A stretch of 42,103 nt of DNA, from contig MIBW01000005.1 of NCBI GenBank assembly GCA_001829625.1, positions 1,242-43,344 on the forward strand, read 5' to 3'. Within the stretch, counting starts at the first letter, position 1. Each line of letters starts with the position of its first letter. The notes below the pieces were generated by a model. That model was not told the origin of the DNA and searched no databases. It saw only the letters and a list, made by a program, of their open reading frames with translations. Positions 1 through 42,103 of this stretch are shown here, piece by piece. A program made the position numbers and the translations under genes. This DNA comes from Sulfurimonas sp. GWF2_37_8 (lineage in GTDB: Bacteria > Campylobacterota > Campylobacteria > Campylobacterales > Sulfurimonadaceae).

Positions 1-2
1 CC

Positions 3-587
3 TATGCAAAAACTTCTGTTGATATAGGAGACACAACCATTTTAGGCGGCCTCTCTTACGCAAAAGGAAGCTCACGCCTTGACCATACCCAAGATGAAAC
101 GGGAGCACACGCATTTAGCGGAGACAGCATACTTTATGGAGCGGACTTAGTTGTGAAACACTTTTTTGATTCATACAGCTCTTTGACTTGGCAAAGTGAA
201 TGGCTCAGTAGAAATATGGACGGAACGCAGTACAGCATCGACGATACAACACTTCTTGCCACACCTGTTGCGCTCACAAAAAAACAAAGCGGACTTTACA
301 CACAACTTGTTTATGCTTATGACAAAAACTGGAAAACTGGTGTGAGATATGATACTATTTATCAAAACGACATTGAAAAAAGTGCGGGCTTACCTGCGTT
401 TGCACCACAAAACTTAGACAAATACTCGGCTATGGTTGAGTACCACACAAGCGAATTTGCAAGATTTAGATTGCAGTACGACAGAAACAATGCACTTTTC
501 AACGCAGATGATGAACGCCAACAAGTAGACACGATTATGCTACAAGCAAATATCTCTATCGGTGCACACGGAGCCCATAGTTTTTAG
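3..587 (+). CDS. Outer-membrane beta-barrel / zinc-associated porin or receptor, C-terminal part (5' truncated by window edge)
   Basis: Open frame runs from window start (YAKTSVDIGDTTILGGLSYAKG...) to the stop at 587; alternating beta-strand pattern and terminal F (GAHGAHSF); directly upstream of znuA/znuB-like genes. Confidence 0.65.
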   Translation, partial: YAKTSVDIGDTTILGGLSYAKGSSRLDHTQDETGAHAFSGDSILYGADLVVKHFFDSYSSLTWQSEWLSRNMDGTQYSIDDTTLLATPVALTKKQSGLYTQLVYAYDKNWKTGVRYDTIYQNDIEKSAGLPAFAPQNLDKYSAMVEYHTSEFARFRLQYDRNNALFNADDERQQVDTIMLQANISIGAHGAHSF

Positions 588-618
588 TAAAAACGCACGG
601 CGGTCATCTCTTTTGACG

Positions 619-711
619 CACGGAGATTCCGCATCAAGTGCGGAATGACGGGAGTGTGTTTGGAATGACGGGTTTTTCGTCACCCTGAACTTCGGTTCTC
701 GGGTCTCCGTG
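619..711. repeat. Composite inverted-repeat intergenic element with CACGGAGA...TCTCCGTG termini, containing ATTCCGCACTTGATGCGGAAT palindrome
   Basis: Perfect 8-bp terminal inverted repeat (619-626 / 704-711); internal hairpin ATTCCGC-ACTTGAT-type; related copies at ~21398 and ~27145. Confidence 0.6.
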
Positions 712-750
712 GGTAAATACAGTTATTCTTATACAAAAAAAGGACACTTT

Positions 751-1626
751 ATGAACAAATTTTACTTTCTTTTTTTACTTCCATTCTCACTTTATGCGCA
801 CTTAAATATTGCCGTGAGTTATCCTTTTATTGGCGCAATTACCAAAAGTATTGGCGGGGAACACATTGAGACCGTTGTACTTGCAAAAGGAAACTGGGAT
901 CCTCACTTTGTAGTGCCGCGTCCTTCACTCATTGCCAAAATGAGAAACGCCGATGCACTTATCATGAACGGTGCGCAGCTTGAAATCGGCTGGTTGCCTC
1001 CGCTTATAAACCGTGCGGCAAATCCAAAAACGCAGCCTAACGCTCCAACATTTTTAAATCTTTCGCACCATGTAGAGCTCATTTTAAAACCAACAAATGT
1101 GGACAGAAGCGGTGGTGACGTGCATCCTGATGGCAATCCCCATTTTCACCTTGCTCCTGAAAATATTTTGATTTTAGCCAAAACAATTGAGGAGTTTCTC
1201 ATCTCAATCGACCAAGAGCACAAAACAATTTATGAAGCCAATTATGCTGCGTTTACTGAAGAATGGAGTAAAAATATAGCGATTTGGAAAACAAAAATGG
1301 CTGAAAAAAAAGGCAAAAAAGTTATCCAGTTTCACGACAACTTGGCGTATTTTAATATGACATACGGGCTAGAGAGCATCGGCACAATCGAACCGCTTCC
1401 TGGGATTCCGCCAAGTTCTCGCCACACTTTAGCGCTTATAGAACTCATCAAAAAAGAAAACCCGTGCTGCGTTTTGCATGATGTTTACCACTCCACAAAA
1501 ACAGCTGCGTTTATCGGTGAAAAGACAGGCCTCCCGATAGTCATTATGCCCCACGATGTAGGTGCGCTAGAGAGCATAGAAGATTTAAAATCTTTGTTTG
1601 ATTATCTCACGGGAGCAATCAAATGA
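751..1626 (+). CDS. znuA: Metal (zinc/manganese) ABC transporter substrate-binding protein, ZnuA-like
   Basis: Signal peptide MNKFYFLFLLPFSLYA; SBP family features (AVSYPFIGAI, NGAQLEIGWLPPL, HPDGNPHFHLAPEN, ESIGTIEPLPGIPPSSRH). Confidence 0.8.
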   Translation: MNKFYFLFLLPFSLYAHLNIAVSYPFIGAITKSIGGEHIETVVLAKGNWDPHFVVPRPSLIAKMRNADALIMNGAQLEIGWLPPLINRAANPKTQPNAPTFLNLSHHVELILKPTNVDRSGGDVHPDGNPHFHLAPENILILAKTIEEFLISIDQEHKTIYEANYAAFTEEWSKNIAIWKTKMAEKKGKKVIQFHDNLAYFNMTYGLESIGTIEPLPGIPPSSRHTLALIELIKKENPCCVLHDVYHSTKTAAFIGEKTGLPIVIMPHDVGALESIEDLKSLFDYLTGAIK

Positions 1627-2363
1627 TGGACATTTTACTCGTTCCGATACTTCTAGTCGTCATCTTAGTTATGCTGCATTCCTACTTTGGTATGGGCATT
1701 CTTAAACGCGGCATTATCTTTACCGACCTAGCCATTGCACAGTTTGCGGCGCTGGGTTCATCTATTAGTCTGGGCTATTTTCATCATGAGTATTTCTACA
1801 TCTTAACCCTGAGTTTTGCGCTTTTAAGTGCGTTTCTCATTGCTTTTGCCTCACAAAGAGAACTCAAACTCGAAGCTTTTATAGGTATTTTGTACGTTTT
1901 AGGTGCTAGCGGCATCATGATGGTTTTGGCAAATTCTGCTGAGGGAATGGAGCATTTCAAGTCTCTTTTAGCAAGTGACATACTTTTTACACCTCTTGAT
2001 GAAGTACTCAAAAGTGCCCTCATTTACGCCCTTATCTCGTTAGCACTTTGGAAGGTTTACCCAAGACTTACAGGTTTTGTCAAAGAGCTTGCGTTTTTCT
2101 CTCTGCTCGCACTCACGGTCACCTCTTCCGTCGCGTTAGCAGGTGTGTTAGTAGTGTTTGTTTTACTTATAGCACCTGCACTTATGGCGACTTCACTCCA
2201 TCTCAAACGCCCTCTTTTAGGCAGTTTTATCTTTGGCTGGAGCTTTAGCATTGCGGCTATTGTTGCTTCTTACTATTATGATTTGCCAACGGGTTACACC
2301 ATAGTTTTTTTAGGTGCTTTTCTTAGTGCTTTACTGGTTTTGGTCACTTCCAAAAAAGCTTAA
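1623..2363 (+). CDS. znuB: Metal ABC transporter permease, ZnuB-like
   Basis: Multi-TM ABC-3 family permease pattern; overlaps the end of the znuA-like gene by 4 nt. Confidence 0.8.
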   Translation: MMDILLVPILLVVILVMLHSYFGMGILKRGIIFTDLAIAQFAALGSSISLGYFHHEYFYILTLSFALLSAFLIAFASQRELKLEAFIGILYVLGASGIMMVLANSAEGMEHFKSLLASDILFTPLDEVLKSALIYALISLALWKVYPRLTGFVKELAFFSLLALTVTSSVALAGVLVVFVLLIAPALMATSLHLKRPLLGSFIFGWSFSIAAIVASYYYDLPTGYTIVFLGAFLSALLVLVTSKKA

Positions 2364-2379
2364 CCTGCTCCTCAAGCTT

Positions 2380-2412
2380 CCTCTTATATAATTCTTTTCA
2401 CATTATAAGAGG
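2380..2412. promoter_or_regulatory. Inverted repeat CCTCTTATA-N15-TATAAGAGG overlapping a TATAAT and the Shine-Dalgarno of the next gene
   Basis: Perfect 9-bp arms (2380-2388, 2404-2412); AGAGG lies ~8 nt before the TTG start at 2421. Confidence 0.5.
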
Positions 2413-2420
2413 TTTGAAAA

Positions 2421-2741
2421 TTGAACTACCCAAACGAATGGACCCAAAAAGAGTATCTACAGAACAAGGTCAAACTTGAAAAAGAAGGAGTGGCGGTTGT
2501 TCTCATCGACACAATCCTCTCCCCGATAGAAAAAGCAGACACGCATACTTACAATCCTTTTGAGTTAAAAAATTATCCCCACGGTAGTGTTTTTGTCTTT
2601 TATTGCGACAGCGGAAAGTCCTCTCTTGACCGCTTAGGAGAGTATAAACAAAAGTTTCCAATGATGCACTGTATTTCCCTCAAAGGCGGTAGAGGTTATT
2701 GGAGAAAGAATATGATGCTGATGGAAGAAGATGTACTCTAA
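2421..2741 (+). CDS. Rhodanese-like domain protein (TTG start)
   Basis: VFVFYCDSGKSS-like active-site loop and LKGGRGYW tail typical of rhodanese domains. Confidence 0.65.
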   Translation: MNYPNEWTQKEYLQNKVKLEKEGVAVVLIDTILSPIEKADTHTYNPFELKNYPHGSVFVFYCDSGKSSLDRLGEYKQKFPMMHCISLKGGRGYWRKNMMLMEEDVL

Positions 2742-3057
2742 ACATGACAAACTTTTGGCAGAGTTCAGCCTTTGCTTGCATGAAAAACGTTACTACGACG
2801 CGCATGAAGCACTTGAAGTCCTATGGTTTCCACGGCGTTTTGAAGATGATGCGCAGGTGTATCTTCTCAAAGGATTTATCAATGCCAGTGTCTCTTTTGA
2901 GCTTATCAAACGCGGTCGATATGAGCCAAGTAAACGTGCCTGGAAAAACTATCTCAAATATAGACAACTTCTCTATAAAGTACCCTCTGTTCATGCAAAT
3001 ACTTACCATGCGATAAGCCGTCACCTCGATACGCTTTACAATTTGAAGCAGATTTGA
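2731..3057 (+). CDS. DUF309 domain-containing protein
   Basis: Motif YYDAHEALEVLWFPRR...LLKGFINASVSFELIKRGR resembles DUF309; overlaps the preceding gene. Confidence 0.7.
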   Translation: MYSKHDKLLAEFSLCLHEKRYYDAHEALEVLWFPRRFEDDAQVYLLKGFINASVSFELIKRGRYEPSKRAWKNYLKYRQLLYKVPSVHANTYHAISRHLDTLYNLKQI

Positions 3058-3109
3058 TTTAACTGATGTTACATTTTATGGCTATAATTCCACCAAAAAA
3101 AGGATTTGT

Positions 3110-3961
3110 ATGGATGCGATAGCCCAAACGCAAGAAGTTGCTCAAGTTGCGGCTACTACTGTAAACAAGTATTCTGATCTTGCTCTTGCATATACGAGCG
3201 AATATGGACTCAAACTTTTAGGTGCTTTGCTTATCTTTATTATCGGTAAATGGGTTATAAAAAGAGTGACGAAGGTCATCAGCACATTTATGCACAAAGC
3301 AAATGTTGATGAAACGCTCTTAGAGTTTGCTTCAAGCCTTATCTACTTCTTACTTTTGCTTATGGTCATTATGGCGTCACTCAATGCTTTGGGTGTCAAC
3401 ACAACCTCTTTTATCGCTGTTCTTGGTGCTGCTTCTTTGGCTGTGGGTCTTGCACTCAAAGATGCACTCTCCAACATCGGTGCAGCAGTGCTTATCATCG
3501 TCTTTCGCCCTTTTGGGATTGGAGATACCATTGATGCAGCTGGAGCAACAGGAAAAGTGATAAAAATTTCTCTTTTCTCTACAACGATAACTCCTGCGGA
3601 TAATAGAGCTATCATCATCCCAAACTCTGCTATCATCAGTGGCAATATCACAAACTACTCCTCCCAAACGCAGCGCCGTGTGGATCACACTTTTGGCATA
3701 GGCTATGGGGATGACCTCAAACTCGCAAAAGAGACGCTCATGGAGATAGTCATGGCAGATGCTCGTGTACTTCTAGAGCCTGCACCTTTTGTTGCTGTGA
3801 GCGAACTGGCTGAGAATAGCGTCAACTTCACGGTTCGCTCATGGGTAAAGACGGATGATTATTGGGATGTCTATTTTGATATCACAGAAAAAGTAAAACT
3901 TACATTTGATGAGAGAGGGATATCGATTCCTTACCCTCAAATAGATGTACATCAAAAATAA
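3110..3961 (+). CDS. mscS: Mechanosensitive ion channel, MscS family
   Basis: ALGVNTTSFIAVLGAASLAVGLALKDALSNIGAAVLIIVFRPFGIGDTIDA is the classical MscS TM3/beta domain. Confidence 0.92.
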   Translation: MDAIAQTQEVAQVAATTVNKYSDLALAYTSEYGLKLLGALLIFIIGKWVIKRVTKVISTFMHKANVDETLLEFASSLIYFLLLLMVIMASLNALGVNTTSFIAVLGAASLAVGLALKDALSNIGAAVLIIVFRPFGIGDTIDAAGATGKVIKISLFSTTITPADNRAIIIPNSAIISGNITNYSSQTQRRVDHTFGIGYGDDLKLAKETLMEIVMADARVLLEPAPFVAVSELAENSVNFTVRSWVKTDDYWDVYFDITEKVKLTFDERGISIPYPQIDVHQK

Positions 3962-3980
3962 AACTTACAAAGGAAAAAAA

Positions 3981-4763
3981 ATGAAAAAAATCTTACTACT
4001 CTCTTTAGCTACAGCATCATTTCTCATGGCTGCTGAAAAGATGGACGCATTTATCAGTCACTCTGAATTAGGGTTCAATAAAACAGACGGAAATACCGAT
4101 ACAACTACCCTCAACCTTGATGCAAAAGCAGAAAAAAATTGGGGCAGACACGCAGCAATCGCTTCTATAGATGGGCAGTACGCAAAAAACAAAGGAGTAG
4201 AATCCAAAAATAAATTTGTAGCGGAACTCAACTATGATTATGTGCTCACACATGAGCTTTCACTCAATTATCTTGCGGGATATAAAGATGACAAATTCTC
4301 GCGTTTTGACTACCAAATATACACCGGACCAGGTGCGAAATACCTTGTTTTTAAAGATGATATCCATAATCTCACCTTAGATGGAAACTTACTCTATGCA
4401 AAAGACGCTATCGCGACTGTAAACTACGACGGTGCGGGTGATATTATCGAATATCCAAATCCAGACAATACTGCGACAGTTACTTCAACTCCAAGCTATA
4501 CTGAAAGTTACGCCGCTTACAGACTTAGAGGCGTTTATGAGAGACAACTTTTAGAAAACCTCAAATTTGGACAGGAACTCAGTTATAGAAGTTCATTCAA
4601 AGATCAGGGGAACTTCTTTATCTACTCCAAAACAGGTCTCTCAACGAAACTCTCTACACTTTTCTCAGCAGGTATGAGCTATAAAGTGGATTATGTCAAT
4701 CTTCCAGGGGACAAAGAAAAAGCCGATACGACACTTACTGCCAATCTTATTATGGATTATTAA
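3981..4763 (+). CDS. DUF481 (YdiY-like) outer-membrane beta-barrel protein
   Basis: Signal peptide MKKILLLSLATASFLMAAE; LGFNKTDGNTDTTTLNLDAKAEKNWGRH, typical of DUF481 proteins. Confidence 0.75.
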   Translation: MKKILLLSLATASFLMAAEKMDAFISHSELGFNKTDGNTDTTTLNLDAKAEKNWGRHAAIASIDGQYAKNKGVESKNKFVAELNYDYVLTHELSLNYLAGYKDDKFSRFDYQIYTGPGAKYLVFKDDIHNLTLDGNLLYAKDAIATVNYDGAGDIIEYPNPDNTATVTSTPSYTESYAAYRLRGVYERQLLENLKFGQELSYRSSFKDQGNFFIYSKTGLSTKLSTLFSAGMSYKVDYVNLPGDKEKADTTLTANLIMDY

Positions 4764-4774
4764 GCGAGGAGAAT

Positions 4775-5896
4775 TTACTCCTTATTAAAGCGGTTTACAC
4801 CGCTTCTACTCCATAGCGTGATAAAAACAAAAGCCACAAAAGCCACAAACGCAGCCACCAAAAAGATACTCTGGGGAAAATAATCATACAAATATCCAAA
4901 ACCAAGCGCGCCCAAAAGTCCGCCAAAACCATAGGTAACTCCTGAAAAGAACTGCTGCGCGAGAACTTTATTGGCATAAATCTGGTGTAGATAACTTATA
5001 GAAGCAGAGTAAAAAAGGGCAAAACTCAGGGCATGAAGTGACTGGGTAAAAAAGAGAACTTCAAGGTTTGTCGGATAGAGATAGACCAAAAACCATCGTA
5101 CAACCGCGGATAATGTGGTAATCTGCAACAACAAAACAAGATTAAAACGCAGCAAACGACCTTGAAAAAAAAGCATCAAAATCTCTACTAAAACACCAAA
5201 AGTCCAGAGATAGATAGTCATATCCAAAGTGAGACCGTGATCTGTCTCATAGATAGTAAAGAAGTTGTAAAACGCACCAAAACTCACCTGCATGAGCATA
5301 AGAGCTACCCACAATTTATAATCACTAATGACGGCAATATCGTTGGGAAGTGTCTCTCTTTTCTGAGCGTTTTTATGGACATCTTTGGCTATAAAAAAGG
5401 CCAAGAGTGCAGTCAAAAAGACAAAACTCATCATATAGTAGAGTGCGATTTGTGGTGAAGTGAGGAACTTAACTAGCAAAAGTGCTACGAAAACGAATCC
5501 TATAGAGCCATAAAGGCGTACCTTTCCATATCCCTCTTTTTTGACTACCTCAAGAGCGATGACTTCAACATAAGGAAGTATCAAACTCATCCCTACGCTC
5601 AGCATGACATTGGAGAAAAAAAGTCCCCAAAAGTTATAGAGCATGAGATAAAACGCAACAGAACTTAGAAACATGATGGCAAGTGCAGCGTTAAATCTTT
5701 GGAAGTTCAGCTCCAAACCTTTCGTAAACGCAAAAGGAAGCAAAAAACGCACTAAAGGTGCAGCTGCGAAGATAATACCTATCTCACTGCCGCTATAACC
5801 CACCATCATGAGCACTTTAGGCATAAATATAATATATATCCCAACAATACCAAAATAAAAAAAATAAAAAATGGCTAAAAGAATCTGCATGAGCAA
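4775..5896 (-). CDS. MFS transporter (MFS_1-like / PPP-type)
   Basis: ~12 hydrophobic segments; KVRLYGSIGFVFVALL motif typical of the MFS_1-like family. Confidence 0.8.
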   Translation of the reverse strand: MLMQILLAIFYFFYFGIVGIYIIFMPKVLMMVGYSGSEIGIIFAAAPLVRFLLPFAFTKGLELNFQRFNAALAIMFLSSVAFYLMLYNFWGLFFSNVMLSVGMSLILPYVEVIALEVVKKEGYGKVRLYGSIGFVFVALLLVKFLTSPQIALYYMMSFVFLTALLAFFIAKDVHKNAQKRETLPNDIAVISDYKLWVALMLMQVSFGAFYNFFTIYETDHGLTLDMTIYLWTFGVLVEILMLFFQGRLLRFNLVLLLQITTLSAVVRWFLVYLYPTNLEVLFFTQSLHALSFALFYSASISYLHQIYANKVLAQQFFSGVTYGFGGLLGALGFGYLYDYFPQSIFLVAAFVAFVAFVFITLWSRSGVNRFNKE

Positions 5897-6044
5897 TTAT
5901 AGCACTGAACTAGAAGAGAGTTTTTGTCAAACCTGGATTTTAGGTCAGATTCACGATGATGCAGAGTTGAATATTTCGTTAATTTAAATCCTAAAGAAAT
6001 ATTTTTCAGCTTCTATTTTTTCACTATCTAGCATAAAATAATTT

Positions 6045-6608
6045 TTAATTTAAGTCCGAATCTGCCCAGTATTTTGTCCCTTGTATCGTCGCCTGAAGTG
6101 CCAAACCGTTTTGGGTAAGTTTGTAGATACGTACACCAGGAGCGACCGTCACGGCTGCGTTTAGCGCTCCACCGTCTGCGCCTGCTTTTGCCGCGGCATC
6201 AGCTTGTGCGTTTGCTTCCCAGCCTTGTTCTATGAAGTAATCAAATGCTTTTTTATCTTCAAAAAGAAAGATGATACGAAAATCTTTGACACCCAGACCA
6301 AATCCAAGACCGCCAGAAGCCATATTCATATAAATGGTTTTGCCACTGCCGTTTACTTTGGCAAGACCTTTGCCGCCTTCTGCAGAGAAGAATAATGCGT
6401 TGATACCGAGGTTGCTAAAAGTGGCATAACCATAAGACCTTGCAATCATCTCTTTTGCCTCAGGAGCGTATTTATACAAAAGCCAAAGAGTTTCCTGACT
6501 TGCTTCTTTGCGTTCACTTCGGAGTTTCTCTGGACTTTGACCCGACCAAAATCCCGAAAACATAAACATGGCAAGCAGCAGTGCCGCGATAATACTAATT
6601 TGTTTCAT
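6045..6608 (-). CDS. Lipid-binding SYLF / YSC84-like domain protein
   Basis: ARSYGYATFSNLGINALFFSAEGGKGLAKV...GLGFGLGVKDFRIIFLFEDKKAFDYF matches SYLF features. Confidence 0.75.
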   Translation of the reverse strand: MKQISIIAALLLAMFMFSGFWSGQSPEKLRSERKEASQETLWLLYKYAPEAKEMIARSYGYATFSNLGINALFFSAEGGKGLAKVNGSGKTIYMNMASGGLGFGLGVKDFRIIFLFEDKKAFDYFIEQGWEANAQADAAAKAGADGGALNAAVTVAPGVRIYKLTQNGLALQATIQGTKYWADSDLN

Positions 6609-7987
6609 TTTAACTCCTTTTCTATTGTCTCAATAGTAACACTTTTTTCTATATGTGAAGCAAACTCATCGATGATTTTTTGTTTATACTCTGCAAAATC
6701 ATAACCTTTATAGTTTGGATTGATACTGCGAAAGAGTTTTGTACGAAATCTATTATTGTCAAATATCCCATGGACTATCGTTGCATAAAGATTTCTTTTT
6801 TTGACAAAAAGCTCTTTAATGATGGCATTATGTATCTCGTAGCCTTGAATTTTGTACCCAAAAAGAGAGTAGAGTCCTTTTTTAGTGATAGTTTTTTTGC
6901 CAAAAATGACCTCTGCGTTTATGCGACCGAGACCTTGTATTTTTTTATACGCTGATTCGACGTTGTTTGGATCGAGTATCTGCTCATGAAGCATCTCATA
7001 ACCACCGCTGATGGCTACGAGTTTTTGTTCTTTGGATGTGAGGATATTTTTGAAACCGTTTTCGATAAGCCACTCTAAATCATCCACAACCATCTTGCTC
7101 CCAGGCAAGATAAGCAAGTCACACAAAGAAGCTTCATGTAGGTTGTTGATAAAACGCAGCTCTATCTCTTTATCTGCCAAAAGCGGTTCAAAGTCCGTAA
7201 TATTGCTGATGTTTGGCAGTTTTATAACACCCACGGTGATGATACTCTCTTTGGTATTTTGAGGAGAAGCGAGCATCGACTCTATCGTGTCAAAGCCAAG
7301 ATTAAGCTCTTTGTGAGGTATGACACCCAGTACACGCATACCAAAAAGCTGTTCGATGATCTGCACGCCCTCGTCAAACTCAGCGATATCATTTTGAAAT
7401 TTATCCACGATAACACCGATAACATCTTGTCTGAGTTTTTTTGGCAAGAGTTTATAAACGCCATAGATAGAGGAAAAAAGTGAGCCGTCTTCTACCCCCG
7501 TTACGAGAATAATCTTCGTTTTAAACTCTTGCGCGATATAGATGTTAGAGAGGTCTCGTTTCATAAAACTTTGCTCAACAGGGTTTCCCGCTCCCTCTGC
7601 TACGATACATTCATACTTTTTTGAGAGTTTGACAAAAGCATCTTTGACAAAAGGTTTGAGCATCTGCGTATCTTTGTAGCAACTCCAGATATCCTTTTTG
7701 CCACTGCTTTTACCATGAATGATAAGATCGGTTTTTGTGGGGGATTCTACTTTGAGAAGGACAGGATTCATCAAAAATGAACTTTTGATACCTATCGCTT
7801 CTGCGGCAAAGCACTGTGGTATCGCCATCTCTGCGCCATCATCACTTACCTGTGAATTTTTGGAGGTGCTTTGCGCCTTAAAAGGAGCGACATTGTAGCC
7901 GCGTTTGTGAAGGATATAGGTGAGTGCAAACGCAATACTGGACTTGCCCTCATCATTGCTTGTGCCAAAAATACTAAGTGATCTCAA
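6605..7987 (-). CDS. cobQ: Cobyric acid synthase, CobQ-type
   Basis: SIFGTSNDEGKSSIAFAL, VAPFKAQSTSKNSQVSDDGAEMAIPQCFAAEA, IVAEGAGNP and C-terminal GATase-like domain. Confidence 0.9.
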   Translation of the reverse strand: MRSLSIFGTSNDEGKSSIAFALTYILHKRGYNVAPFKAQSTSKNSQVSDDGAEMAIPQCFAAEAIGIKSSFLMNPVLLKVESPTKTDLIIHGKSSGKKDIWSCYKDTQMLKPFVKDAFVKLSKKYECIVAEGAGNPVEQSFMKRDLSNIYIAQEFKTKIILVTGVEDGSLFSSIYGVYKLLPKKLRQDVIGVIVDKFQNDIAEFDEGVQIIEQLFGMRVLGVIPHKELNLGFDTIESMLASPQNTKESIITVGVIKLPNISNITDFEPLLADKEIELRFINNLHEASLCDLLILPGSKMVVDDLEWLIENGFKNILTSKEQKLVAISGGYEMLHEQILDPNNVESAYKKIQGLGRINAEVIFGKKTITKKGLYSLFGYKIQGYEIHNAIIKELFVKKRNLYATIVHGIFDNNRFRTKLFRSINPNYKGYDFAEYKQKIIDEFASHIEKSVTIETIEKELK

Positions 7988-8119
7988 ACTTCACGACTCC
8001 TTGTGATAACGCTTTAGTAGAAAGTTCTTTTTTTCTAAAGCAAAAAGTGTACTCACTGGAGCTTTTACTGAGATAATGGATAACTCTTTTAGTTGTTAAG
8101 ATACAAAAGAATTTTGCAA

Positions 8120-8160
8120 AACGCAAGAGACTGCCGCGCTACGCTCGCAGTGACGGAGTG
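8120..8160. repeat. Intergenic palindromic repeat of the CGTCACTGCGAGCGTAGCGCGGCAGTC type
   Basis: Antisense of GACTGCCGCGCTACGCTCGCAGTGACGG; second relative at ~25393 (TGTCACTGCGAGTATAGCGCAGCAC). Confidence 0.5.
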
Positions 8161-8246
8161 TTGTTACTGTGAGGTTTTTTAAAGAAACTTTTTCGCTTTG
8201 CAAAAAGCGCTTCGCTTGTTTTTGTAGCTTTAGGGGGTGCATAACA

Positions 8247-8909
8247 TCAGTTATTGATTGAAACCAACCCTTTTATTTTTTTATAAAAATAGTTAAAACT
8301 TGGAGATTTATTGTTGTTAATATCCATCCGTGGAGTGATCTTACTCGCCCAATTGCATTTTTCTGCTCCTATGACACTATAAGGATGTTTTTTTAAGGCT
8401 GAAGAACCTTTCGGATAGATTGCATTTGCAAGAGTTTCCCAAGTTCCACAAATACTGTCATTTGTGTAGGTTGTTAAAATATCTGATTTAGCAGAGGGAT
8501 AAGCATCTTTTATAGCATTGGTATCACCCAGCAACCATGCTTCACCCTCTTCAATTGCAAGGCAAAACAAGGTATTCGGCTTTTGAGTACAGTTCTCTAA
8601 AATAACTACTAATTCTTGTTTAAAGTCTATTAAACATTTTGAATCTAAATCAACTATGACTATAACCACTGCTTGATATGTTTCTCCATAACTAGCATGT
8701 GTTCGTCCAAATCCTGCTAACAATCTTGGCAATTGATTTAATAACACTCTTTTACTAGGGTCAATGGTTTGATTTAAATCTTTCGGTATATGCCCTACGC
8801 CTTTGTATTTATGTATTTTAAATGTGTCATCTGAAGAAATCATTTTAGGCAATAACTCTTGCAACATTATTTCGCCAGATTGATCTTCTATTAGTATCTC
8901 AAAAAACAT
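8247..8909 (-). CDS. DUF4276-like protein (possible TOPRIM-like nuclease partner of AAA ATPase)
   Basis: N-terminal ILIEDQSGE, VVIVIVDLDS and LAIEEGEAWLLGD acidic motifs; starts 1 nt after the AAA ATPase stop. Confidence 0.65.
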   Translation of the reverse strand: MFFEILIEDQSGEIMLQELLPKMISSDDTFKIHKYKGVGHIPKDLNQTIDPSKRVLLNQLPRLLAGFGRTHASYGETYQAVVIVIVDLDSKCLIDFKQELVVILENCTQKPNTLFCLAIEEGEAWLLGDTNAIKDAYPSAKSDILTTYTNDSICGTWETLANAIYPKGSSALKKHPYSVIGAEKCNWASKITPRMDINNNKSPSFNYFYKKIKGLVSINN

Positions 8910-10196
8910 TTATGTAACTTTTAAGTCCAAATAATCACTATACCATAGTGAACCAAGAGGGATACCTTCTGCAACCAAATTTACCAATAAACCATCATCA
9001 CTTGCTCTTCTTATATTAGAAAATCCATTATCATTTTTATCTAAAATCCATACTTCGTTTGGTTGCAGAGCATCTACAAAATACGGTTGATGTGTAGTGA
9101 CAAATATTTGTGAGCCTCCTTTTTTCCCTGTTGCATGTTGACGGAACTCACTGGCAAGAGTTTCAAGTAGCTTGTGGTATAAACCATTCTCTGGCTCTTC
9201 AATACAGAGAAACTGCGGTGGACTAGGATCTTCTAGCAGTAACAAATAAGCAAAAACTTTTAATGTTCCATCTGACATTTTTTGTGCATAAAAAGGATCT
9301 TGAAATCCTTTATTATTAAACCTTAATAACAATCTTCCATCATTTGTTCTTTCTGTATCAATATGCTCAATACCTGGTATTTTATTGGCAATTTTATTAA
9401 GTATATTTTGAAATTTTGTTTTATGTTCTCTTTCCATATATTGGACAACATTTCCTAAATTATCCCCATGCATATTTAGATGTTTTTGTGGTCCGGACAA
9501 GGGAAGACTTCTAGCAGCATCAGGCGTAAAATAACTTAAATACCAATTTTCAATAAATTCCCTAAAAGAGGAAATTCTCGGGTGTTCCGTCAAAGTTCCT
9601 AAAATAGCTATTCCTAATCTTCTTTTATCGGAAAGCTCCACTAATTCCGTTGTCGTACTTTCTACTTGTGAAAAACTTGCCAATAAGTTTTCTATTGGTG
9701 TTTCAAAATCATCATTTGTGATTTTTAAACCTTCTAACTCTCCCTTCCATACAGCTCCACGCCCTTCATTAAGCAATAAAAAAGAAAAAGGACGACCCCT
9801 ATCTTGCCCTGCACGTCTTTGGCGTAAGCGCTCTGATTTTACATATGGACGTTCATAATCATCCAAATCAATAGAAAGTTCATATGTAATAGGTCTTGAC
9901 TTATAATCTTCTCTATAGTACACGTGAAACTCTATTGGTTCATTTGAACCTTGAGATCTCATTTTGTGAAAACCGCCCCGACCATTCATATCACAAGCTT
10001 CTTCTACTCCAAACTTCAAACAATCCGATAAAAATCCAAAAACGTCAAATAAAGTGCTTTTACCAACACCATTCTTACCTATAACTGCAGTTAAAGGTGT
10101 TAATTCTTCTTTCCCTTGAGTATTCCACAATTTACCCATTGTAATGTCTTTTAAGGTTCCAAAATTTTTAACACTAAATCCTTGAATTTTCGCCAT
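8910..10196 (-). CDS. AAA family ATPase (AAA_21 / RloA-OLD-like)
   Basis: Walker A GKNGVGKST, Walker B FLCIEEPENGL, QIFVTTHQPYFVDAL H-loop region. Confidence 0.85.
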   Translation of the reverse strand: MAKIQGFSVKNFGTLKDITMGKLWNTQGKEELTPLTAVIGKNGVGKSTLFDVFGFLSDCLKFGVEEACDMNGRGGFHKMRSQGSNEPIEFHVYYREDYKSRPITYELSIDLDDYERPYVKSERLRQRRAGQDRGRPFSFLLLNEGRGAVWKGELEGLKITNDDFETPIENLLASFSQVESTTTELVELSDKRRLGIAILGTLTEHPRISSFREFIENWYLSYFTPDAARSLPLSGPQKHLNMHGDNLGNVVQYMEREHKTKFQNILNKIANKIPGIEHIDTERTNDGRLLLRFNNKGFQDPFYAQKMSDGTLKVFAYLLLLEDPSPPQFLCIEEPENGLYHKLLETLASEFRQHATGKKGGSQIFVTTHQPYFVDALQPNEVWILDKNDNGFSNIRRASDDGLLVNLVAEGIPLGSLWYSDYLDLKVT

Positions 10197-31325: not shown

Positions 31326-32081
31326 ATGAGTATTTTTAATGATCATAGAGAGAGAATCATAACAGGATTGGCGCTTTTGGCTGTTGTTCTTGTTGTGGGA
31401 TTTATCGATAATTTTTACTTGATGTGGCTTGTTTTTGGAGCTGTTTATCTTGTCGCGTTTAAAGAAGCTATGGCGCTCTTTGATGTCAAAAATGACAGAG
31501 CATTTGTTTATGCTATCGGAGTTTGGTTACTTGCGGGTATCTATCCGTATGGCGATGATCTTTTTGTTCTTGCGGGTATAGCCTACGCCAGTGCCATAGC
31601 ATATAATAAAGATTTGGAATGGAGAAATTTCTTCCCTTTTATCTACCCTACGGCGGGAATGCTTTTTATGTTTACGATGTATCAGGAGTATCATATTCTT
31701 TCGCTTTTGTGGCTGCTTGTCATCGTCGCACTGACTGATGTGGGAGCTTACGCAGTAGGCAAAACTATCGGTGCGACAAAGTTCTCACAGACAAGTCCGA
31801 ATAAAACAATGGAAGGCGTTGTAGGCGGTATTATCGTTGCAACTTTGGGCGGAACACTTATTGGGCTTTATAGCTTTAGTTTTACCGCTGCAATCATTAT
31901 CTCTTTTGTAGTCTCTTTGGCTTCTATCTTTGGCGACTTGTTTGAGAGTTCACTCAAACGCAGCGCAAACGTAAAAGACAGTGGAACAATTTTTCCAGGT
32001 CATGGCGGTATGCTTGATAGGATTGACGGCTATCTTTTTGCATCAATCGTGATGCTTGTGCTTCTTAGAGGCTTAGTATAG
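31326..32081 (+). CDS. cdsA: Phosphatidate cytidylyltransferase
   Basis: GDLFESSLKRSANVKDSGTIFPGHGGMLDRIDGYLFA signature. Confidence 0.95.
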   Translation: MSIFNDHRERIITGLALLAVVLVVGFIDNFYLMWLVFGAVYLVAFKEAMALFDVKNDRAFVYAIGVWLLAGIYPYGDDLFVLAGIAYASAIAYNKDLEWRNFFPFIYPTAGMLFMFTMYQEYHILSLLWLLVIVALTDVGAYAVGKTIGATKFSQTSPNKTMEGVVGGIIVATLGGTLIGLYSFSFTAAIIISFVVSLASIFGDLFESSLKRSANVKDSGTIFPGHGGMLDRIDGYLFASIVMLVLLRGLV

Positions 32082-32082
32082 T

Positions 32083-33153
32083 TTGATACTTCTTGGTTCT
32101 ACAGGTTCTATAGGGGTCAATACCTTAGCTGTTGCCAAAAAGTTCGGCATGAATGTCGAAGTTTTGGTGTGTGGTAAAAACATAGAACTTTTAAATCAGC
32201 AAATAGAAGAGCACCATCCTAGTATCGTAATAGTGTCTGATGAAGAGGATAGAGTAAAAGTAAATCATGACTGCGTTTACGCGGGCCAAGATGCCATTGT
32301 TGCCGTTATCAAAGACTCTTCCAGTGTGCTTGTTGTCAACGCACTTGTTGGTTTTTTAGGTCTGCGCCCGACTTTAGCGGCATTAGAGAGTGGCAAAAGA
32401 GTCGCGCTTGCAAACAAAGAGTCTTTGGTTGCTTGCGGTGCTTTCATCGACACTTCAAAAATCCAGCCTATAGACAGTGAACATTTCGGGCTTTGGTATC
32501 TTTTACAAGAGAGACCCATAAGTAAGATGATTATTACGGCAAGCGGCGGTGCTTTTCGTGATTGGGATATCAAAAAACTTCAAAACGCAAGTTTAGCTGA
32601 TACACAAAAACATCCAAATTGGTCGATGGGGCAAAAAATCACTATAGATTCGGCAACGATGGTCAATAAAATGTTTGAACTCCTTGAAGCTAGATGGCTT
32701 TTTGGCGAAGGTCAATACGACGCTATCATCGAGACAAAATCCCTTATTCACGCACTCATAGATTTTAAAGACGGCTCTACGACAGCACACTTTGCACACG
32801 CAAGTATGCAACTCCCCATCGCGTATGCTTTAAATCAAAAGATGGATGTAAATATCCTCGCTCATGTCGATTTGCTCAAAATCGGCTCTTTGGAGTTTCG
32901 AGAAATAACACATGAGCGGTATCCTGTATGGCAGATAAAAGAGGAGCTTTTGAAAAATCCTCAAAGAGGCGTAGTAGTAAACGCAGCTAATGAAGCGGCG
33001 ATAGAACTTTTTATAGAGAAAAAAATAGGTTTTATGGACATTAGCAAGCATATTATAACAGCATATGAAAAGTTTGACGCAGCTCCAAAAAATGTCGCAG
33101 ATGTTTTTATTATAGATAAAGAAGTGAGAAGTTATGTAAGGACGAGAGTATGA
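32083..33153 (+). CDS. dxr: 1-deoxy-D-xylulose 5-phosphate reductoisomerase (TTG start)
   Basis: [52 protein letters not shown]. Confidence 0.96.
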
Positions 33154-34127
33154 TACTCAGCATAGAGAGCTCATGCGACGATAGTGCTATAGCCATTACA
33201 GAGATAGCTACAAAAAAACTTCTTTTTCATAAAAAGATATCGCAAGAGTTGGAGCATAGCGTTTATGGGGGTGTTGTACCTGAACTTGCAGCAAGACTCC
33301 ATGCAGAAGCACTTCCTCGTATTTTAGAAGAGTGTGCGCCTTATTTTCAGGATCTAAAAGCCGTAGCTGTAACTTCTTCTCCTGGATTGGCTGTAACACT
33401 GATAGAGGGTGTGACGATGGCAAAAGCTATTGCTGTGGCACTAAAGATACCGCTTATCGGAGTGAATCATCTTATTGGGCATATCTATTCACTTTTTATA
33501 GAAAAAGAGGTTGCGTTTCCTCTCACGGTACTTTTAGTCTCAGGCGGACACACTCAGGTGATGGAAGTCAAAAATTTGCACGACATCAAAACAGTCGCAA
33601 AAAGTATGGATGATAGTTTTGGAGAGAGTTTTGATAAAGTAGCAAAAATGATGGATTTGGGATATCCTGGCGGACCTTTGATACAAGAACTAGCAAAAGG
33701 CGCGCAGAGAAAAAGATACAATTTTACTATCCCACTACTACATTCATCTAAATTTGCGTTTTCCTATTCTGGGCTTAAAAACGCAGTAAGATTGGCTGTT
33801 GCAGAGAGTGATACAGAGGATTATAAAGATATCGCGGCTTCTTTTGAACATATCGCAACGACGCACCTCACGCAAAAACTCAAAAAATATTTTAAAGAAG
33901 TTCCGCCTCAAACTTTTGCTATAGTCGGCGGAGCAAGTGCAAACTTGTATCTACGAGAGCAAATAGAAGAACTCCTCAAACCCTACAAAGCCAAGCTTCT
34001 TTTGAGCGAACTTCACTACTGCTCTGACAATGCGGCGATGATAGGACGCGTGGCTGTTGCGATGTATGAAGAGAGGATGTTTTCTACTTTAGAGAGTTTG
34101 AAGATTACTCCAAGAAGTAACATATAA
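33150..34127 (+). CDS. tsaD: tRNA N6-adenosine threonylcarbamoyltransferase
   Basis: [45 protein letters not shown]. Confidence 0.96.
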
Positions 34128-35694: not shown

Positions 35695-36516
35695 ACGATT
35701 TGCCTCAAGCAGAGGCGAATCACGCCCCATATATCTTCTATCAAGTACAGCAATCTCACAAACAAGCCAAATACCAAAAGTTTCATAAACCCTTTTTTGT
35801 GCCTCTTGGATAAGATAGATAGCATCCTTAAATGCGCCATTATTGTGATTTACAAGAAAGTTTGCATGTTCTTTGCTAAACTCCATATCTCCGACTCGTA
35901 GCCCTTTGAGACCTACGGATTCGATAAGTCTTCCTGCAAAATCACCAACAGGATTTTTAAAACAGCTTCCTGCACTTGATGTGGTTGGTTGGTTTGTACG
36001 CATTTTTTTAAACATGGCTACTTTTGCGTTATCAAAACCATAATTAAGAGCAAGTGTGACTTCAAGGATAGGCTCATCTATATTTGTGTATCTGTATCCA
36101 AAATCTATCTCAGACTTGCGTTTTGTGCCTGAACAGATTTGGATAGAGATGAGTTGATTGAATATTTCGTACTCTTTGAGTCCTGCATTCATATACACAA
36201 GACCGCCCATTTTGCCAGGAAGATGAGAGAGAAATTCAAGATTTGCTATATTGTTTTTTTTGCAAAAAGAGGCGACTTTGCCTGATGGAGTCGCTGCTCC
36301 AACGACAAGGAAGTTATCTTGTATTTTGATGTAATCATATTTTTTGCTTAATGTTAGGAGTTTTGGAGGCTGTTCTCCAATAAGGATGTTATTACATGAG
36401 CCAATGATATAAGACTCTTTATCATAAAAGATACAATCCTCTAAAAGCATAACTTCTAAAGTTTGCCCAACTCTGATAGAAGAGTATTTTGAAAAATCTA
36501 TCTCTTTTGTTTGCAT
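35659..36516 (-). CDS. murB: UDP-N-acetylmuramate dehydrogenase
   Basis: SSIRVGQTLEVM, LEFLSHLPGKMGGLVYMNAG, SSAGSCFKNPVGDFAGRLIE. Confidence 0.92.
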   Translation of the reverse strand: MQTKEIDFSKYSSIRVGQTLEVMLLEDCIFYDKESYIIGSCNNILIGEQPPKLLTLSKKYDYIKIQDNFLVVGAATPSGKVASFCKKNNIANLEFLSHLPGKMGGLVYMNAGLKEYEIFNQLISIQICSGTKRKSEIDFGYRYTNIDEPILEVTLALNYGFDNAKVAMFKKMRTNQPTTSSAGSCFKNPVGDFAGRLIESVGLKGLRVGDMEFSKEHANFLVNHNNGAFKDAIYLIQEAQKRVYETFGIWLVCEIAVLDRRYMGRDSPLLEANRLKTQHQTCIKT

Positions 36517-36783: not shown

Positions 36784-37647
36784 TTATGAGTTCCTGAGTT
36801 CTTTATATTCTATAGGAATGAGATAATCTTCTATTGTAGTCATAGTATCATAAAACCCATGAGCATAGCCAATTTCAAAGAGTTTATTGATGGCTTTGTA
36901 TTGGATAGGGCTTAAAGATATTGAGTCATCATTGGCATAGAGTTCGAGATATTTATCTAAAGTAGGCGCATTTATGCGGACAAGATTACGCTCAAGAAGC
37001 ATCTTTGAGAGACGTTCTTTATGTTTTCTTGCAACAGAGACAGCTTTAGTGAGTGTTACTTCGTATTCTATGGCTTTGTTCAGTGGTAAAGAACGACGGA
37101 TAGCCATACCACCAAGTGGAAGAGGAAGTTCATCTCCAGCAAGCTCTTGCCAGATATCCCACATTTCTCTCTCAACCTCAAGTGCATCTGCATAAGTCAA
37201 AATACTCTCATGTATCAAAACACCAGCGTCAACAATACCATCAAGTACGGCTTGTTCTATCTCTAAAAAGTTCATATAAGTGATGCGTGCATCAGGATAA
37301 GCGATACGAAAAAGCATGGCGTTTGTGGTGTGTTTTCCGCTGAGTGCGACTTTGAAGTTGCGTTTGAGTTTAGTCTCTTTTTTCTTGATGAGTTTTGGGC
37401 CATATCCTTCGCCAAAACTCACAGCGGTTCGTAGCGGAGCATATTCTTCTTTGATGTGTGGATAGAGCGCAAAACTGATAGCAACGATATCGTAAACGCC
37501 ACGCAGCGCATCTTCGTTGAGTGTTTGGATATCTTTAGCAATGTTATCAAATTGTACATTTTTCATATTGACCCAGCCAAACTTAATTGCATAGTACATA
37601 AAGATATCGTCTGCATCCGGCGAGTGGGCAATAAGTGTTTTTTTCAA
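36784..37647 (-). CDS. mqnD: 1,4-dihydroxy-6-naphthoate synthase-like protein (futalosine menaquinone pathway)
   Basis: AHSPDADDIFMYYAIKFGWV, DIVAISFALYPHI, PLPLGGMAIRRSL. Confidence 0.85.
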   Translation of the reverse strand: MKKTLIAHSPDADDIFMYYAIKFGWVNMKNVQFDNIAKDIQTLNEDALRGVYDIVAISFALYPHIKEEYAPLRTAVSFGEGYGPKLIKKKETKLKRNFKVALSGKHTTNAMLFRIAYPDARITYMNFLEIEQAVLDGIVDAGVLIHESILTYADALEVEREMWDIWQELAGDELPLPLGGMAIRRSLPLNKAIEYEVTLTKAVSVARKHKERLSKMLLERNLVRINAPTLDKYLELYANDDSISLSPIQYKAINKLFEIGYAHGFYDTMTTIEDYLIPIEYKELRNS

Positions 37648-38894: not shown

Positions 38895-40163
38895 ATGTTT
38901 ATAGATAATGTGAGTGCGATAGAAGTAATGGATTCACGTGGAAATCCAACAGTAAAAGCAACAGTTGTACTGAGTGATGGAACAGTAGCCAGTGCAATCG
39001 TTCCTTCAGGTGCAAGTACAGGTAAACGCGAAGCGCTTGAGTTGCGTGATGGCGGAAGCCGTTATATGGGTAAGGGAGTGTTACAAGCAGTTGAAAACGT
39101 AAATTCTCAAATATCAGATGCCCTTATAGGTTTATCTCCTTTTAATCAGGCAGTTATTGACGCGACAATGAAAGAGCTTGATGGAACTGAAAACTATGGC
39201 AACCTTGGTGCAAACGCAGTTCTTGGTGTTTCTATGGCAGTTGCTCGTGCTGCAGCACAAAGTCTTGGTGTACCACTTTACCGTTACTTAGGTGGAGCAA
39301 ACGCTATGGTTATGCCAACTCCTATGCTCAATATTATCAATGGCGGAAGCCATGCTGACAACTCTGTTGACTTTCAGGAATATATGATTATGCCTATTGG
39401 TTTTGAGGATTTTGCAACATCACTTCAAGCATCTGCTGAAGTGTATCATAACCTTAAAGCGATTTTAAAAGCGAAAAAACACAATACGGCACTTGGTGAT
39501 GAGGGTGGTTTTGCGCCAGATCTTAGCTCAAATGAAGAACCTATCCAAATTATAATGGAAGCTATAGAAAAAGCTGGTTACAAAGCGGGAGAGCAAATGG
39601 CAATCGCACTCGACGTTGCTGCTTCAGAACTTGTATGCGAAGGTGGGTATAAGCTTGATTCTGAAAATAGAACAGTAAGTTCTGCTGAACTTGTTGACTA
39701 TTATGTTGACCTTTGCACAAAATACCCGATTGTATCTATCGAAGACGGCTTGAGTGAAGATGACTGGGCTGGTTGGAAAATTCTTACTGAAAAACTTGGA
39801 AACAAAGTACAACTCGTAGGAGATGATTTGTTTGTTACAAATGCAAGTATTTTAAGTGAAGGCATACAAAAAGGTATCGCGAACTCTATTCTTATCAAAC
39901 CAAACCAAATAGGTTCAGTTTCTGAGACGATGCTTACTGTGCGTTTAGCACAAAGAAATGGTTACAAATGTGTTATGAGCCACCGTTCAGGTGAGAGTGA
40001 AGATGCATTTATTGCTGATTTTGCAGTTGCCTTAAACTGTGGCGAGATCAAAACTGGATCAACTGCACGTGGTGAGCGAACTGCTAAATACAACCGTCTT
40101 TTAGAGATTGAGAACGAAGTTGTTTATAGTGAATATTTAGGCTCTACACTTTTCAAACACTAA
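38895..40163 (+). CDS. eno: Enolase
   Basis: [75 protein letters not shown] before ATG 38895. Confidence 0.98.
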
Positions 40164-40172
40164 GTCACTTCT

Positions 40173-40451
40173 ATGGATAATGAAGAGCTTTATGACACTA
40201 TAGACAATTCGCAAAGTTTGACGCAACGTTACCTTGGAGTACCGTTAGCAAAGTTTTTGCTTATGTTTTTTATGGTCATTGGCTTTGGTGTTTATTTGGG
40301 AATGCTTCTTTATGGAACTAACTCACTTGAAGTTCTTTTTGGGCTTCAGGATTATGAAACCTATCTTCAAGGTGAAGTTGACAGACTAAAAAATGAAAAC
40401 GCAGAACTGCAGCGGGAGTATTTTGAGCTTAAAGAGATTTCTGCTCAATAA
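40173..40451 (+). CDS. FtsB/DivIC-like septum formation protein
   Basis: One TM helix followed by coiled coil GEVDRLKNENAELQREYFELKEI. Confidence 0.7.
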   Translation: MDNEELYDTIDNSQSLTQRYLGVPLAKFLLMFFMVIGFGVYLGMLLYGTNSLEVLFGLQDYETYLQGEVDRLKNENAELQREYFELKEISAQ

Positions 40452-40496
40452 CTCGCTATAATAACCATCAACTAAATTGCCCTAGGAGCGTAAAAG

Positions 40497-41159
40497 ATGA
40501 AAGTTTTAATAGCAATATTTCTACTTTTATCAGCTCTTGTCGCAAGAGAAAACCCTTTTTTTCCAACTGAGGGAGAAAAAGAACTCCCTTTTACATCCAA
40601 TGATGTGAAAAATCTTCCTGCCTTGCAGCGCGCAAGTATTTCTCTCCCATCTAAAGCAAGAGTTCTTGAGAGTGTTAGTGTAAAATATAAAAATCTTGAT
40701 GGTTCAACTGAGAGTAAAACTATCGAAGTAGAAAATACAATCGACTGGCATTTACCAATCTTTGTCACACAAAGCTACCCCTCTTCAAATACTCAAGAGA
40801 TAAAGAGTGAAAAGAGAGAGGAAGTAAAACAAGCTAAAGAGATAAAAAACAAACAAGGGCTTGAAAAGATTGCTTCTATAGCATACGCCGACTTTTATAC
40901 ATCAGGAAAAAGCCTTCAAGTAAATACGAAAGATGAGCTTATGAGAAACTTTTTACTTTCGCATCCACACAGAATAGTCCTTGATTTTAAAAGAGATGCA
41001 AATATTAAAGCTTACACAAAAGAAATTTCACAAAATATTTTTTCAAAAATTAGAGTAGGAAATCACTCTGGTTATTATCGTGTTGTTATCGAGCTTGACG
41101 GATATTATAGATACACTCTTGCAAATACTAACACAGGATATACAATCACACTGCGTTAG
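40497..41159 (+). CDS. AMIN domain-containing protein
   Basis: Signal peptide and C-terminal HRIVLDFKRDANIKAYTKEI...RVGNHSGYYRVVIELDG. Confidence 0.75.
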   Translation: MKVLIAIFLLLSALVARENPFFPTEGEKELPFTSNDVKNLPALQRASISLPSKARVLESVSVKYKNLDGSTESKTIEVENTIDWHLPIFVTQSYPSSNTQEIKSEKREEVKQAKEIKNKQGLEKIASIAYADFYTSGKSLQVNTKDELMRNFLLSHPHRIVLDFKRDANIKAYTKEISQNIFSKIRVGNHSGYYRVVIELDGYYRYTLANTNTGYTITLR

Positions 41160-41160
41160 T

Positions 41161-41322
41161 TTAGGATTTAAAAAACGAGTAGATAAATCTTAAAAAGCCA
41201 CTCTCTCTTTTCCCTTGTTCAAGCTTAAAAGCTTGAGGTTTCTTCTTTTTTGTTTGCTCATGCAGTTTATTTTCAAGATAACTTGAGGCTAGATGAAGAA
41301 AGCTAGGCTCAAATTTATTCAT
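41161..41322 (-). CDS. Small basic hypothetical protein (53 aa) MNKFEPSFLHLASSYLENKLHEQTKKKKPQAFKLEQGKRESGFLRFIYSFFKS
   Basis: Own reverse-strand translation; start overlaps the OmpA/MotB-like gene stop; below the ORF-track length cut-off. Confidence 0.5.
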   Translation of the reverse strand: MNKFEPSFLHLASSYLENKLHEQTKKKKPQAFKLEQGKRESGFLRFIYSFFKS

Positions 41323-42103
41323 AGTCCAAAATCCTCTCTATTTCATGAAGAGCATCATCGTTTTTAAGGGTAAATTTTATCTCTATTCTTCGTGAGAGTT
41401 CTTTATCTTCTTGAGCTTTTTTATCTTTGATTGTATCTTGATCTGCTCTTCCGCTTGCAAGTAAAAGTGGTTTGAGATTATTGTTTTCAGTAAAATCAAG
41501 CGTCAATAGATAACGCATAACGGCGTAAGCTCTTTTTTGAGAAAGGTCGAGGTTGTAGAGATAGGTTCCATCACTATCTGTATGTCCTTCGATGATGATT
41601 TTATCAAGCTGATTTTTTATATTTTTATTGGAAGTGAGTGCACCTACATAGTTAATAAATACTTTTTTAAGCTCATTTTTAGATGACTCCTTAAGTTCTG
41701 CACTTCCTTTATCAAAGAGAATATTTGAAGAGAGCCTCAATGAACCGCTTATAGGGTCAATCTGTATATTTTTGCCTAAGTTTTGTTTGAGCTCGGCTAT
41801 GACTTTTATTTTTATACCTGTGAGACTTTTAATCTTTGCTTTTTGCTCTTGGAGTTTCGCGATAAGAATGTCATATTTGCTTTGATTTTCTAGAAGTACA
41901 TTTTCTTTGTTTGCAAGTTCACCTGAGAGAGCTAAAATTGTTGCGTTTAGATCATCTATATGCATTGATTGAGAGAGTAAAACGCTGTTGAGATTAATAA
42001 TCTCTTGCGTGGTAAGTTCTAGTGCCTTTTCTTTATCACTGAGTTCATTTGTTCTTTGCGCGAGCAGGGCTTGGAGTCTCTGAACTTCAATATCCCGCAA
42101 CAA
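41315..42103 (-). CDS. OmpA/MotB C-terminal domain protein with coiled coil (5' truncated by window edge)
   Basis: LFDKGSAELKESSKNELKKVF...IIIEGHTDSDGTYLYNLDLSQKRAYAVMRYLL. Confidence 0.88.
   Translation of the reverse strand: MLRDIEVQRLQALLAQRTNELSDKEKALELTTQEIINLNSVLLSQSMHIDDLNATILALSGELANKENVLLENQSKYDILIAKLQEQKAKIKSLTGIKIKVIAELKQNLGKNIQIDPISGSLRLSSNILFDKGSAELKESSKNELKKVFINYVGALTSNKNIKNQLDKIIIEGHTDSDGTYLYNLDLSQKRAYAVMRYLLTLDFTENNNLKPLLLASGRADQDTIKDKKAQEDKELSRRIEIKFTLKNDDALHEIERILDYE

Follow-up and report, generated by a model that had tools for sequence, protein, structure and literature searches.

A putative DNA uptake sequence in Sulfurimonas and an unrelated second word that may take its place in sister clades

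The question raised by this locus is why one short word, AAACGCA, recurs so densely and in both orientations along 42,103 nucleotides of Sulfurimonas sp. GWF2_37_8 (contig MIBW01000005.1, positions 1,242 to 43,344; this whole stretch is called the window here). The window is part of contig 5 of a genome (G000) of 1.906 Mb in 101 contigs, 83% complete. We show here that the word, usually followed by a purine (AAACGCAR), is enriched with a sharp core, strand symmetry and independence of codon usage, is conserved at orthologous positions in relatives, occurs in flanking dialects, excludes a second word, TACATGTA, and is found alongside comEC and pilin genes. Judged from sequence, AAACGCAR is probably a DNA uptake sequence (DUS) of this Sulfurimonas lineage.

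Within the window AAACGCA occurs 71 times, 32 times on the plus and 39 times on the minus strand, whereas base composition predicts 5.4. The initial annotation of this DNA had estimated about 65-70 copies in both orientations against about five expected, and its further estimates hold as well: the sibling words AAACGCG, AAACGCC and AAACGCT, put at about ten copies each, number 12, 11 and 10, and the base 3' of the core, described as mostly a purine, is one in 60 of 71 cases (A 27, G 33, C 8, T 3). The sites are the following.

395-401, minus strand, AAACGCA site
591-597, plus strand, AAACGCA site, intergenic
1028-1034, plus strand, AAACGCA site
1248-1254, minus strand, AAACGCA site
1468-1474, minus strand, AAACGCA site
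1506-1512, minus strand, AAACGCA site
1829-1835, minus strand, AAACGCA site
2090-2096, minus strand, AAACGCA site
3126-3132, plus strand, AAACGCA site
3666-3672, plus strand, AAACGCA site
4847-4853, plus strand, AAACGCA site
5145-5151, plus strand, AAACGCA site
5270-5276, plus strand, AAACGCA site
5651-5657, plus strand, AAACGCA site
5726-5732, plus strand, AAACGCA site
5745-5751, plus strand, AAACGCA site
6156-6162, minus strand, AAACGCA site
6207-6213, minus strand, AAACGCA site
6914-6920, minus strand, AAACGCA site
7152-7158, plus strand, AAACGCA site
7928-7934, plus strand, AAACGCA site
8119-8125, plus strand, AAACGCA site, intergenic
10583-10589, minus strand, AAACGCA site
11666-11672, plus strand, AAACGCA site
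12182-12188, plus strand, AAACGCA site
12813-12819, plus strand, AAACGCA site
15023-15029, minus strand, AAACGCA site
15247-15253, plus strand, AAACGCA site
15827-15833, minus strand, AAACGCA site
16254-16260, minus strand, AAACGCA site
16561-16567, minus strand, AAACGCA site
16653-16659, minus strand, AAACGCA site
16710-16716, plus strand, AAACGCA site
18267-18273, minus strand, AAACGCA site
19601-19607, minus strand, AAACGCA site
20302-20308, plus strand, AAACGCA site
20539-20545, minus strand, AAACGCA site
20923-20929, minus strand, AAACGCA site
21436-21442, minus strand, AAACGCA site, intergenic or within a doubtful small reading frame
21686-21692, minus strand, AAACGCA site
21722-21728, minus strand, AAACGCA site
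22583-22589, minus strand, AAACGCA site
22844-22850, minus strand, AAACGCA site
23047-23053, minus strand, AAACGCA site
23585-23591, minus strand, AAACGCA site
24855-24861, plus strand, AAACGCA site
25283-25289, plus strand, AAACGCA site
25374-25380, plus strand, AAACGCA site, intergenic
25422-25428, minus strand, AAACGCA site, intergenic, opposite in orientation to 25374
25627-25633, minus strand, AAACGCA site
26025-26031, minus strand, AAACGCA site
27303-27309, plus strand, AAACGCA site
27870-27876, plus strand, AAACGCA site
28296-28302, minus strand, AAACGCA site
29777-29783, plus strand, AAACGCA site
29894-29900, minus strand, AAACGCA site
30696-30702, plus strand, AAACGCA site
31956-31962, plus strand, AAACGCA site
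32272-32278, minus strand, AAACGCA site
32583-32589, plus strand, AAACGCA site
32979-32985, plus strand, AAACGCA site
33512-33518, minus strand, AAACGCA site
33755-33761, minus strand, AAACGCA site, minus/plus pair with 33779; pair also in L009 and L010
33779-33785, plus strand, AAACGCA site, minus/plus pair with 33755; pair also in L009 and L010
35684-35690, minus strand, AAACGCA site
36117-36123, minus strand, AAACGCA site
37359-37365, minus strand, AAACGCA site
39212-39218, plus strand, AAACGCA site
39940-39946, minus strand, AAACGCA site
40397-40403, plus strand, AAACGCA site, intergenic
41942-41948, minus strand, AAACGCA site

The coordinates first given for individual sites are correct to within two bases, and the frames assigned to them (N-A, T-Q, A-F, R-F) agree with the open reading frames (ORFs). 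Among the sites then listed as intergenic, those at 591, 8119, 25374 and 25422 are so, while 21436 is doubtful, lying inside an ORF of 118 aa (21413-21769, minus strand) whose status as a gene is uncertain. Order-3 Markov simulation of the window yields 16.7 +/- 4.3 copies (maximum 28 in 300 runs), and codon shuffling of its coding sequence 13.8 +/- 3.2 (maximum 23 in 300) against 67 found. A maximal-order Markov model of the window alone does not flag AAACGCA, because the word's own 6-mers absorb the signal. The longest AAACGCA-free gap in the window (8119-10583) has a length within chance; read from its sequence, it holds two genes, one AAA-ATPase-like and the other its small partner, that resemble a mobile or defence pair. 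A scan of the window for Rfam families found none.

Across the 1.906 Mb, AAACGCAR is present 2,567 times (1345+1222), one per 0.74 kb, compared with 346 (196+150) for the same pattern read backwards, which served as control word. Detailed Markov and codon tests were run on 271 kb of this genome. Models of order 2-4 flag AAACGCA, and under orders 2 and 3 it is the top 7-mer and AAACGCAG the top 8-mer. Could codon usage, base composition or a mutational bias have produced this excess? The N-A and A-F codon pairs do hold more sites than any others, as would be expected of such an artefact. However, the 271 kb hold 394 AAACGCA within ORFs versus 79 under codon shuffling (maximum 104 in 200), and all six frame/orientation classes exceed the codon null, by 2.7- to 7.3-fold. 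Codon bias is therefore rejected, since the shuffle is exceeded both in the window and in the 271 kb; one-base neighbours of the word are neither generally depleted nor enriched, and relatives with similar proteins lack the word. An artefact is thus scarcely credible. The initial annotation had argued for selection at the nucleotide level and had named an excess lost on codon-preserving shuffling, or confined to one codon pair or frame, as its refutation; the 5-fold excess and the six enriched classes support the claim. The core itself is sharp: AAACGCAG is found 260 times against 14.4 expected, and nearly all one-base neighbours occur at about the expected frequency, the exception being AAACGCAA (201 against 33.5), with smaller excesses at positions 7 and 8, for example AAACGCGG (30 against 8). 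The consensus is approximately H-AAACGCA-R-B, with a short flank preference (non-G before, C favoured after) that is weak beyond position 9. The C-to-T variant AAATGCAG is mildly raised in some genomes and was rejected as a dialect of its own.

When strands are assigned by GC skew, 442 copies lie on the G-rich and 426 on the C-rich strand, in keeping with the symmetry first proposed. This bears on the possibility that the word is a Chi-like recombination hotspot or a KOPS-like (FtsK orienting polar sequence) segregation motif, read by AddAB/RecBCD or FtsK. Like Chi, which is tied to recombination, AAACGCAR is an over-represented, short, asymmetric word, and its high density, mostly intragenic location and conservation in close relatives would suit such a role; AAACGCAG alone leans 239 versus 200 by strand (p 0.07), a weak caveat to symmetry. 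Chi and KOPS are normally polar, however, and the orientation bias expected of Chi is absent. The words are also patchy between sister clades, and the alternative word TACATGTA is a palindrome that offers no readable polarity, which would argue against Chi for both words if they share a function. We consider a Chi or KOPS role improbable.

The coefficient of variation of AAACGCA spacing is 1.23, and gaps reach 7 kb; since the ORFs of the longest gap, read from sequence, are ordinary housekeeping genes (secY-like and ribosomal-protein ORFs among them), the gaps are not simply mobile DNA. Sense copies number 25 in the first and 57 in the last fifth of genes, antisense copies 44 and 28 (p 1.8e-4), the antisense trend taken alone not being significant.

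How far the word extends among relatives was followed through the class (397 genomes) and the family (200 genomes). Clear positives for AAACGCAR are confined to the genus Sulfurimonas (g1); the enrichment is absent in the other sampled genera of Campylobacteria. Among 135 Sulfurimonas genomes about 30 are positive (30-32 by threshold), ranging from G141, with 2,331 AAACGCAG against 83 of the control, down to weak cases. In a species tree built from recA and eno they fall into several clades with motif-free lineages between them. The RecA of G000 is 98-99% identical to that of the metagenome-assembled genomes Sulfurimonas sp. STC_53 and N3_29, which correspond by match coordinates to G141 and G097. 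Flank and core dialects are found: the G146/G170 group has YYAAACGCAGY, and the G177/G154/G193 group mixes the word with AAACGCGA or AAACGCCA. Conservation at orthologous sites, a check proposed at the outset, was judged against control words made by shuffling the letters. An exact copy persists at the orthologous coding position in 52 of 74 cases in G141, 34 of 76 in G097 and 38 of 47 in G071, that is 70, 45 and 81% versus 35, 21 and 60% for shuffled words (p 3e-7, 1e-4 and 8e-3), or 1.4 to 2 times better. Four motif-free relatives retain it at 1/55, 0/34, 0/32 and 0/34 positions (0-2%).

A scan of sampled loci of motif-free genomes for further words revealed TACATGTA, a palindrome unrelated in sequence to AAACGCAR and extended in G142 to CTACATGTAG. 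It stands 2.5- to 25-fold above its reversed control in 26-31 of the 135 genomes, depending on threshold, and at most 1.3-fold in every one of the 30-32 AAACGCAG genomes. Not one genome carries both words (Fisher p 6e-5 to 6e-4, with genomes counted individually and phylogeny not corrected). TACATGTA is mostly intragenic and exceeds the codon null 5- to 9-fold (55 versus 10.6 in G142; 24 versus 3.8, 17 versus 2.1 and 19 versus 2.1 in other genomes). Mapped onto the species tree, carriers of one word or the other show at least four changes, with sister clades alternating between the two. This pattern fits alternative specificities of one system. Of the DUS-like interpretation first offered, the DUS-like character and the symmetry stand, while patchiness, flank dialects and exclusion go beyond it and strengthen the uptake-sequence reading.

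A further word, CATGAGC, occurs 879 times in G000 and 1,924 times in G071, compared with 38 and 78 reversed copies, and 29 times in the window; it exceeds the codon null (137 versus 33), its core is sharp, and it shows no bias by strand. We also observed AGATGCT, CAGATGC and AGATGCA over-represented in the Sulfurimonas loci L298, L166, L222 (G103), L168, L225 (G195), L059 and L044, G103 having 35 CAGATGC and no reversed copy; these could be a third dialect. Strong over-representation within about 18-19 kb was seen for CCACATGCC in L026 (labelled Sulfuricurvum) and for CGATCGC in L078. CTCAAAG, also over-represented and with a mild strand bias (192 versus 126), has 128 of 185 copies in the G000 loci in one reading frame, where 39 are expected, and is therefore probably a codon-context effect.

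If AAACGCAR is an uptake sequence, some DNA-binding component of the type IV pilin/ComEC machinery would bind it on extracellular DNA, and conspecific DNA would be imported preferentially. Recombination would then swap imperfect sites for perfect ones, so that the word builds up in both orientations, to about 1.3 copies per kb. A change in receptor specificity would replace one word by another, and TACATGTA would serve that system as an alternative dialect. On this basis the specificity of uptake in Sulfurimonas may rest on two or more unrelated words that exclude one another, AAACGCAR and TACATGTA and perhaps AGATGCW and CATGAGC too, and that have replaced each other time and again among sister clades; we regard this proposal as evenly balanced.

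Genes of a transformation machinery are present. A comEC match is found in 123 of 135 Sulfurimonas genomes, G000 included. In the genomes inspected, pilin genes occur no more than about 8 kb from comEC; in G000 this neighbourhood holds priA and two type IV pilin genes, so that this carrier, judged from its genes, has a transformation machinery. In C. jejuni the start of DNA uptake requires the competence protein Cj0683, which has a pilin motif and is encoded ahead of priA (PMC10046745), and the priA-adjacent pilin matches it by gene order. Its AlphaFold model (predicted local distance difference test, pLDDT, 90) has the long N-terminal helix and four-stranded sheet of type IV pilins; Foldseek of the model against the PDB gave nothing significant, and the matches of a profile search fell mainly on the N-terminal helix that pilins have in common. 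Relatives of this pilin occur in 117 of 135 genomes, motif-bearing and motif-free alike. It was the obvious candidate receptor but gained no support: its tree needs 10 label changes and follows the motif no better than the species tree does, and no receptor is therefore assigned. We noted (L283, L286, L292, L305, L307) that the priA-adjacent pilin alleles of G000 and G071 are closest to those of the distant clade G170/G211/G217, so that horizontal exchange of the pilin locus is likely; G141 and G097, which are close relatives, carry a different allele. An extra pilin cluster of the G000 clade was dropped as receptor locus, since it proved to belong to type II secretion (L263-L266, with genes that read from sequence as gspC to gspM-like) and is also found in a motif-free genome. 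G142 has a matching pilin cluster; none is among the pilin-motif matches of G095, G081 and G064.

Several observations weigh against an uptake sequence. No receptor was found, and the priA-adjacent pilin does not track the motif. Neither word is present in 72-79 genomes, although comEC occurs in most of the genus. CATGAGC coexists with AAACGCA and is left unexplained by a one-receptor picture. Inverted plus/minus pairs within 20 bp are rare (7 among 766 sites), intergenic density is 1.07 per kb versus 1.59 in coding sequence, hence not enriched, and the window's genome is a metagenome-assembled one, 83% complete. The scarcity of inverted pairs also led us to reject a terminator role.

An abundant protein that organises the nucleoid or regulates genes, and that changed its specificity from lineage to lineage, would likewise be expected to have conserved binding sites on both strands, in coding and intergenic DNA, and such a switch could also yield exclusion. 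However, 1.2-1.6 sites per kb, mostly intragenic and replaced wholesale between sister clades, are unusual for nucleoid proteins, and the flank and core dialects resemble those of uptake sequences, so that we place this reading slightly below a Chi or KOPS role. The main rival that preserves the link to uptake is recognition of methylated self DNA: a lineage-specific methyltransferase would mark the word, the mark and not the bare sequence would be read at uptake, and the two words would belong to two different methyltransferases. Palindromic TACATGTA resembles many methyltransferase targets, and a methyltransferase swap would suit the exclusion. Methyltransferase targets are rarely over-represented 5- to 20-fold, however, and AAACGCAR is non-palindromic. 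We hold methylation to be unlikely, though less so than the other rivals. It has a precedent in the same phylum, since C. jejuni discriminates self from non-self at the first uptake step via CtsM-methylated RATTY (PMC8468864). RATTY is a short, common motif, methylated by an orphan methyltransferase, that acts in a methylation-dependent manner, whereas AAACGCAR is longer and over-represented.

How does a putative uptake sequence of this kind compare with the known ones? A neisserial genome holds about 1,000-6,000 exact copies of a short DUS, without general orientation bias, and the family has lineage dialects (PMC3630211; PMC2346458); AAACGCAR resembles these sequences in copy number, lack of orientation bias and dialects. 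The neisserial DUS belong to the GCCGTCTGAA family, however, to which AAACGCAR is unrelated; they often form inverted pairs that act as terminators between genes, whereas AAACGCA is rarely paired and not enriched intergenically; their dialects share a CTG core, whereas AAACGCAR and TACATGTA are mutually unrelated; and their receptor, the minor pilin ComP, is known, while no ComP-like receptor was found for the Sulfurimonas word. The uptake signal sequences (USS) of Pasteurellaceae have sense copies toward the 3' and antisense copies toward the 5' end of genes (PMC2346458). AAACGCAR shares with them the high copy number, the mostly single sites and the placement of sense and antisense copies at opposite gene ends. 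It is unrelated to the USS words AAGTGCGGT and ACAAGCGGT, whose receptor is predicted to be ComN/PpdA, and its flank preference fades beyond position 9, whereas the USS carries an extended A/T-rich flank (PMC1852404). The best explanation is thus that AAACGCAR would act like a DUS or USS yet lie outside both sequence families.

Sequence-encoded DNA uptake specificity has been described in two proteobacterial families (PMC12616744, PMC3630211). Literature searches, which covered open papers but not subscription papers or preprints, turned up nothing linking uptake sequences to Campylobacterota or Sulfurimonas, which agrees with the initial statement that no DUS is described in this phylum, with the caveat of the CtsM-methylated RATTY of C. 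jejuni (PMC8468864). As far as titles and abstracts tell, Epsilonproteobacteria and uptake sequences meet there in a general review only, and papers on Sulfurimonas and natural transformation or competence include none about uptake sequences. The two words look like rival self-recognition passwords for DNA uptake, in a phylum from which no sequence of this kind was known. Since these are environmental bacteria with several closed genomes in the set, the question is directly testable. If true, this would be a third independent case of uptake sequences, in Campylobacterota, with unrelated alternative words in sister clades, and a kind of password switch without a described counterpart in Neisseriaceae or Pasteurellaceae, where a common core persists across dialects. 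It would let uptake sequences be tested as barriers of sexual isolation, and would let one study how a genome swaps thousands of sites.

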